From NCBI RefSeq assembly GCF_900100335.1, contig NZ_FNFE01000001.1, positions 62,001 through 126,000 on the forward strand: DNA of 64,000 bases. Direction: 5' to 3'. The notes under the pieces are model-generated. The model was not told the origin of the DNA. It saw only the letters and a program-made list of their open reading frames with translations, and made no database searches. This stretch comes from Natronorubrum texcoconense (GTDB lineage Archaea > Halobacteriota > Halobacteria > Halobacteriales > Natrialbaceae). Shown here piece after piece: positions 839 to 1,696 of this stretch. The translations under genes were made by a program, and so were the position numbers. Numbering within the stretch: position 1 is the stretch's first letter; the number at the start of each line of letters is the position of its first letter.

Positions 839-922
839 TATAGTAACAACTGAAACGATTTACACACCGATCGCAACGCTATCCTGCGATCGGGTGCGCA
901 GTGACTTTCAGTGGCTACGATA
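839..922. repeat. Imperfect inverted repeat, about 37-bp arms with 9-base loop
   Basis: Left arm 839-875 starts TATAGTAACAACTGAAA and ends ACACACCGATCGCA; right arm 885-922, read on the minus strand, starts TATCGTAGCCACTGAAA and ends GCGCACCCGATCGCA. Most positions match across the arms, with a loop at 876-884. No second copy was noticed in this window. The size and terminal TATAGT/TATCGT symmetry look like a small dispersed palindromic (MITE-like) element; I recall similar haloarchaeal intergenic repeats but cannot verify it here. The right arm runs into the 3' end of the neighbouring minus-strand gene. Confidence 0.7.
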
Positions 923-1696
923 CCCCCGCTGCGTCGCCAGCCACTCCTCCCACGTTATCGTTCCGACAGCTCGATCGGGACAGGTCGCTCCGCCCGCCCG
1001 AAACCCGGAGGCGACCGCACCCGGAATCGGAATCCGGACGACGGGACGGCAACTCCCTCGAGCGTCGCGGTACGTTCGAGCTAAACTCCCGACGGTTCGG
1101 CGCTCGGGACCGCCGACGTCGGGGACGCGACCGGACGCCTCGAGCGCCGCGTAGTCCACGATCGCGTCTGCGACCTCGCCGACGTCGATCGGTTGGAGCG
1201 GGACCTCGGCCGGTACCGGCCAGATCGGGAGCCAGGAGATCGTCTCGAGCAACTCGAAGACGAACGAGTGAAACTGCGTCGCGCGGACGACCGTCGACGG
1301 AACGGCGCTCGCTTCGACGGCCCGTTCGGCTGCCAGCTTGTGCTCGTAGTACGTGTACGGAATCTCGTCGACCCCGACGATCGAGACGTAGACGAAGTTT
1401 GTAACGCCGGCGTCGGCAGCCGCTTCGAGGAGTCGCTCGGTGCCGCGGAGATCGACGCTCTCACTGTCGCCGCGGGGAGCGGTTGCCGCGTGGACGACCA
1501 CGTCGACGTCCGCGAGGGCTGCTCGAACCCCCGTTGCGTCCGCGAGATCCGTCGCGACCCACTCCACCTCGTCGTCGGTGTCCTCCGGTGGGGATCGACT
1601 CGTCGCGCGAACCTCGCGTCCCGCACCGAGCAGTCGGGACCGAAGGGCGCTGCCGAGCGTTCCGGTCGCGCCGGTGAGGAGAGTCCTATGAGTCAT
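908..1696 (-). CDS. NAD(P)-binding epimerase / NmrA-like protein
   Basis: A 262-residue Rossmann-fold protein with the dinucleotide motif LLTGATGTLGSALRSRLL at residues 4-21 and the VVVHAAT strand typical of extended or atypical short-chain dehydrogenases. It lacks a clear SDR Tyr-x3-Lys pair in the usual spacing; a YYEHKLAAE segment at the corresponding site gives Tyr...Lys at close spacing, as in NAD-dependent epimerase and NmrA-like proteins. Start chosen at ATG 1694-1696, directly before the Rossmann motif; the frame stays open 71 codons further upstream but that part is Arg-rich and not protein-like. The last four residues (Y-R-S-H) and the stop lie in the right arm of the palindrome at 839-922. 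Confidence 0.8.
   Translation of the reverse strand: MTHRTLLTGATGTLGSALRSRLLGAGREVRATSRSPPEDTDDEVEWVATDLADATGVRAALADVDVVVHAATAPRGDSESVDLRGTERLLEAAADAGVTNFVYVSIVGVDEIPYTYYEHKLAAERAVEASAVPSTVVRATQFHSFVFELLETISWLPIWPVPAEVPLQPIDVGEVADAIVDYAALEASGRVPDVGGPERRTVGSLARTYRDARGSCRPVVRIPIPGAVASGFRAGGATCPDRAVGTITWEEWLATQRGYRSH

Follow-up and report, generated by a model that had tools for sequence, protein, structure and literature searches.

ERIC sequences are short palindromic bacterial repeats that end in TA and can fuse to reading frames. Correia/NEMIS elements, likewise short bacterial palindromes ending in TA and able to fuse to reading frames, are described together with the repeat unit of pneumococcus (RUP), a non-coding sequence of about 100 bp with IS630-like inverted ends that uses TA targets and whose own frames contain stops (PMC2229807). 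ISY100, of the IS630/Tc1-mariner group, inserts at TA and duplicates it (PMC2170065), and part of the same paper cites earlier work on preferential transposition of IS630 to the TA in CTAG. Short haloarchaeal repeats that lack a transposase and show strain-specific insertions are described from Haloquadratum walsbyi as SMRs, MITEs and PATEs; the SMRs reportedly have neither a target duplication nor transposon relatives, and the PATEs, which are related to IS605, have no terminal inverted repeats (PMC3119063).

The locus studied here lies at positions 839-922 of the window (the whole 64-kb stretch of DNA that was analysed) and consists of an 80-bp palindromic element (841-920) with a TA on either side, an 84-bp imperfect palindrome in total. 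A sequence-only reading had called an imperfect palindrome at 839-922, and these coordinates correspond exactly to the element plus its two TA copies. Our reading, to which we assign a probability of roughly 0.87, is that this is a MITE moved in trans to the TA of a CTAG-like target, that it landed in the TAG that ended an epimerase-like gene, and that it is now probably immobile. The features are as follows.

839-840, no strand: TA target duplicate on the left (empty sites have one TA, filled sites two).
841-920, plus strand: palindromic MITE of 80 bp in the orientation TAGTAACAACTGAAAC...GGCTACGA; boundaries taken from the empty sites of family relatives, with 47 matching stretches in the host genome.
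921-922, no strand: right copy of the duplicated TA target, which is the minus-strand TA of the original TAG stop codon as reconstructed.
839-875, plus strand: left arm, with outer stem 839-855, unpaired stretch 856-862 and inner stem 863-875 (pair counts over 205 and 39 copies; fold).
876-884, plus strand: apical loop, variable, and the site of extra sequence in long variants elsewhere in the genome.
885-922, plus strand: right arm, with inner stem 885-898 (one bulged base), unpaired stretch 899-905 and outer stem 906-922 (pair counts; fold).
908-1696, minus strand: epimerase-like gene, encoding an NAD(P)H-binding domain, that received the insertion in its stop codon (Pfam NAD_binding_10 and Epimerase; element-free orthologues).
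908-922, minus strand: element-derived Tyr-Arg-Ser-His codons and TGA stop (translation of the filled site and of the in-silico empty site).

The terminal arms (839-855 and 906-922) are 82% complementary over 17 bp, and beyond a conserved unpaired stretch an inner stem joins 863-875 to 885-898. Folded as RNA, the element strand is more stable than 200 of 200 shuffles (z -3.6); folded as DNA, it is better than all but one of 200 (z -3.4). The element has terminal inverted repeats, many copies and no transposase gene, for which 80 bp leaves no room. It occurs once in the window.

The filled epimerase-like reading frame ends ...WLATQRGYRSH*, with the final codons TAT CGT AGC CAC followed by TGA; the tyrosine codon combines the TA on the right with the element base that comes first on the minus strand. 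Joining the flanks in silico with a single TA gives a protein that ends ...WLATQRG* at a TAG stop. As reconstructed in this way, the insertion fell into the TAG stop, added four residues and supplied a TGA, and translation would now run through the four element-encoded residues to the element-encoded stop. The last four codons and the stop (908-922) are thus inside the element, as the sequence-only reading had proposed; its further claim of an insertion at the 3' end that provided a new stop also stands, with the refinement that the gene was not shortened but lengthened by four residues. Element-free orthologues in two genomes of the same genus end ...WLAEQYAN* and ...RLAERYASGANDTPAHAKSPT*, so that homologues without the palindrome carry different C-termini, as that reading had anticipated. 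This comparison, in which the empty site of the window copy is a reconstruction and the orthologues are only 58-62% identical, indicates that the insertion left the conserved portion of the protein untouched.

Mobility was assessed by aligning haloarchaeal loci with and without a copy of the element. In Halomicrobium katesii and H. mukohataei, which are about 97% identical, empty sites read GCGAC-TA-ACAGG and GTGC-TA-GTCGG, and filled sites read TA-[TAGTA...TACTA]-TA. All five comparisons with flanks at least 96% identical, which come from this species pair, show a single TA when empty and TA-element-TA when filled. Apart from substitutions, most empty sites of lower identity fit the single-TA model; two depart from it by about four bases. 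The first aligned pairs, about 87-95% identical, had looked like blunt insertion with small irregularities, and no flanking duplication was found when repeats were sought beyond the constant ends TATAG...CTATA, because the duplicated TA sits inside those ends. Insertion without target duplication was rejected when the 97% identical pairs revealed the hidden TA. The target duplication for which the sequence-only reading advised a search is therefore present, although as TA only, and hence it resembles part of the palindrome. One apparent presence/absence pair, Haloarcula hispanica and CBA1115, was discarded, as the copy is in both plasmids and had been missed in one search. The remaining pairs demonstrate that the element is mobile; transposition itself is deduced from sequence.

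Judged from the bases beside the TAs, 101 of the 189 copies whose ends are intact had CTAG as their old target; among control TAs in the same loci, CTAG accounts for 257 of 14,397. Both TA duplication and a bias towards CTAG are characteristic of the IS630/Tc1-mariner group, and we therefore classify the element as a MITE. Among 136 testable insertions, 31 fall, once reconstructed, in the stop codon that closes a frame of 150 codons or more. The corresponding control values are 698 of 14,397 for all TAs (p 8e-13) and 47 of 257 for CTAG sites (p 0.29), with the p-value approximate because some insertions in the sample are shared and an open frame need not be a gene. The idea that stop codons as such are preferred was discarded, since the effect vanishes against the CTAG control, and the CTAG target alone can account for the frequency of stop-codon hits. 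An enzyme that prefers CTAG often hits stops, as CTAG often is a stop codon in these GC-rich genomes, and the element adds stops of its own, which amounts to a simple rule for rewriting protein C-termini.

The 47 matching stretches in the host genome, found with a 101-bp query, represent about 40 loci, of which some 31 are near full length, eight have extra sequence in the apical loop and one is degenerate. They are mostly 76-93% identical to the window copy, as expected for an old population that is no longer moving. Matches occur in 32 of 61 genomes (the host and 60 relatives) and in 31 of 37 genomes of the same family, many of which hold dozens of copies; the copy number within one family ranges from none to dozens. 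The element is also present in 50 plasmid records (Natrialbaceae, Haloarcula, Halomicrobium, Halostella and others), and an exact-pattern scan placed it in further genera of Natrialbaceae and Haloarculaceae. No match was found among 50,697 phage records, and a phage origin was set aside on that account; nor was there a match in Rfam, so the element is not identified with a known RNA family. The suspicion, drawn from the letters of one locus, of a mobile and amplified element belonging to a widespread non-autonomous haloarchaeal family is supported by the number of loci, the presence/absence pairs and the spread over genomes and plasmids, and the contrary picture of a single-copy sequence with no homologues does not apply. 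A literature search with pieces of the element sequence found no paper. The IS630-type palindromic MITE is a known type, and the present element is a new example of it, absent from the literature searched.

Several copies depart from the standard form. The eight long variants carry roughly 40-330 bp of additional, internally repetitive GC-rich sequence exactly in the apical loop (CTCGCGGGTCGTTCC..., CCGCGGTTCTCGCTCAC..., GAACCGCG), and this sequence occurs outside the element in the host genome too. In that genome (G000) they are located as follows.

Long variants: C7:193748-194003, C2:1269050-1269195, C4:228296-228447, C10:93162-93287.
Long variants, continued: C3:802660-802874, C9:178403-178600, C3:83265, C2:1297641-1298059.

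At 85-136 of the window, within the reading frame 1-408, there is a low-complexity stretch (GCGAGCGAAGCGAGCGGACGG...GCGGGAGCGACCG) of a flavour like that of the long-variant inserts, with a single match within the window. Tandem pairs of elements 3-8 bp apart were seen at three loci of one genome (L159, L161 and L162 of G028), two of which share the same spacer, an arrangement that would arise if the pair travelled together or if the terminal TA of an existing copy served as target for a new one.

A DDE_3 domain search of the relatives identified a candidate partner, an IS630 transposon of 1059 bp (measured from TATAG to CTATA) with the ends TATAGTAGTCGTTAGAAATAATTGCTCAC and TATAGTAGTCGTTAGAACTTTC. 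It has two overlapping ORFs, presumably joined by a frameshift, both of which score above the NCBIfam cut-off for IS630 transposase; of its 18 complete copies, 16 have CTAG as target and two have ATAG. Aligned with the element's right arm, one end of the transposon is identical at 21 of 35 positions, a score reached by roughly 1 in 100,000 shuffles; once the first eight bases, the common TATAGTAG, are set aside, the similarity is modest (13 of 27, p about 0.004). In Natrialba magadii (G034) this transposon sits at a CTAG inside the arm of two separate element copies. The internal CTAG is the same in both (L419 and L428, at about 1424-2570), which may reflect nested insertion or movement of a composite. 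By analogy with RUP and IS630-Spn1 (PMC2229807), the probable mobiliser of the element is an IS630-type transposase acting in trans, which would insert the element at the TA within a CTAG-like site and duplicate that TA, perhaps by cut-and-paste as in ISY100.

The partnership between the element and this transposon is not one-to-one. The host genome has no DDE_3 match and no detected IS630-type transposase, and for that reason the window copy is probably immobile now. The catalytic ORF of the IS630 has no homologue in the host genome or in several copy-rich genomes, among them G016 and G028, and Halomicrobium katesii has only a distantly related IS630 with different ends, yet its element copies were recently mobile. 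The findings in G016, G028 and H. katesii speak for a TA-targeting MITE with another mobiliser, either a different IS630 subgroup or a TA-targeting member of IS5, a serious possibility to which we nevertheless give less than even odds, as the 1059-bp IS630 shares similar ends and the CTAG target with the element. H. katesii (G061) also contains, at L444, L445 and L446, an IS630-like element, about 1146 bp long and present in multiple copies, whose ends (ATACAGTCGTGCGAAAGTATTTGC) differ from the inner part of the element arm (GAAAGT...TGC) yet recall it.

Together with the stop-codon effect, the covarying arms are the more interesting features of the element. Among 205 equally long copies, pairing between the arms reaches about 89-100% at almost every stem position, with two mismatches and the middle stretch unpaired in most copies. 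Pair 30/54 is C-G and T-A at near-equal frequency (C-G in 7 and T-A in 5 of the 15 host-genome copies), pair 12/73 occurs as C-G, T-A and G-C, and pair 15/70 as A-T and C-G. Both-sided changes were found among 39 divergent copies at 10 of 28 pairs, in 46 cells compared with 11.6 for shuffles and 3-6 for a slid partner, counts that are inflated by subfamily amplification. The strong covariation indicates that pairing is maintained, and its cause may be selection on pairing, arm-to-arm copying, or co-adaptation to the transposase. A rather improbable further reading is that pairing is itself selected or enforced by arm-to-arm copying, in which case the MITE would be a structured hairpin beyond two transposase binding sites and the unpaired stretch a recognition feature.

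The covariation and the many copies at gene ends could also be taken to mean that the copies persist chiefly for a role as structured RNA or as transcript ends, as regulatory hairpins whose mobility is incidental. We consider this unlikely, as the CTAG target explains the gene-end bias, presence and absence differ between close species, copy numbers vary so widely within one family, and Rfam holds no counterpart. A REP/REPIN-like or IS200/IS605-type hairpin, or an SMR of the Haloquadratum walsbyi kind, which reportedly leaves no target duplication (PMC3119063), would suit the hairpin form, the GTAG near the right end and the want of repeats beyond the constant ends, but is highly improbable given the TA duplicated at high-identity empty sites and the genomes (G004, G005, G012 and G015) that carry the element without a Y1 transposase. 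No element copy lies near any of 30 Y1 genes, and a REP/REPIN with a Y1 (RAYT-like) transposase was rejected for lack of both co-occurrence and adjacency; the SMR class, which fits in size, was rejected because the element duplicates its target. Two Y1 (IS200-type) transposase genes, at G000:C2:3-326 and G000:C5:6-305, were the only ones found in the host genome, and both are cut at contig ends, where the assembly probably breaks at copies of the gene.

The trans-mobilised MITE that we favor constitutes a defined, widespread archaeal family: it has exact ends, a target site and a transposase that can plausibly be assigned to it, and its hosts are organisms with short mobile repeats earlier described as enigmatic. 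It resembles the SMRs, MITEs and PATEs of Haloquadratum walsbyi as a short haloarchaeal repeat without transposase and with strain-specific insertions, but differs from SMRs in duplicating TA and from PATEs in having both terminal inverted repeats and a TA duplication, both classes being set apart here by their description. With Correia/NEMIS and ERIC it shares the short palindrome ending in TA and the fusion to reading frames, an analogy in design only; their hosts are bacterial and those of the present element archaeal. TA duplication, CTAG preference and terminal bases similar to those of haloarchaeal IS630 link it to ISY100 and the IS630-family insertion sequences, from which it differs in having no transposase gene. 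RUP, with its IS630-Spn1 partner, is likewise a short non-coding repeat with IS630-like inverted ends, TA targets and stops within its own frames, whereas the present element is archaeal, 80 bp long and almost wholly palindromic, with covarying arms and a measured preference for CTAG.
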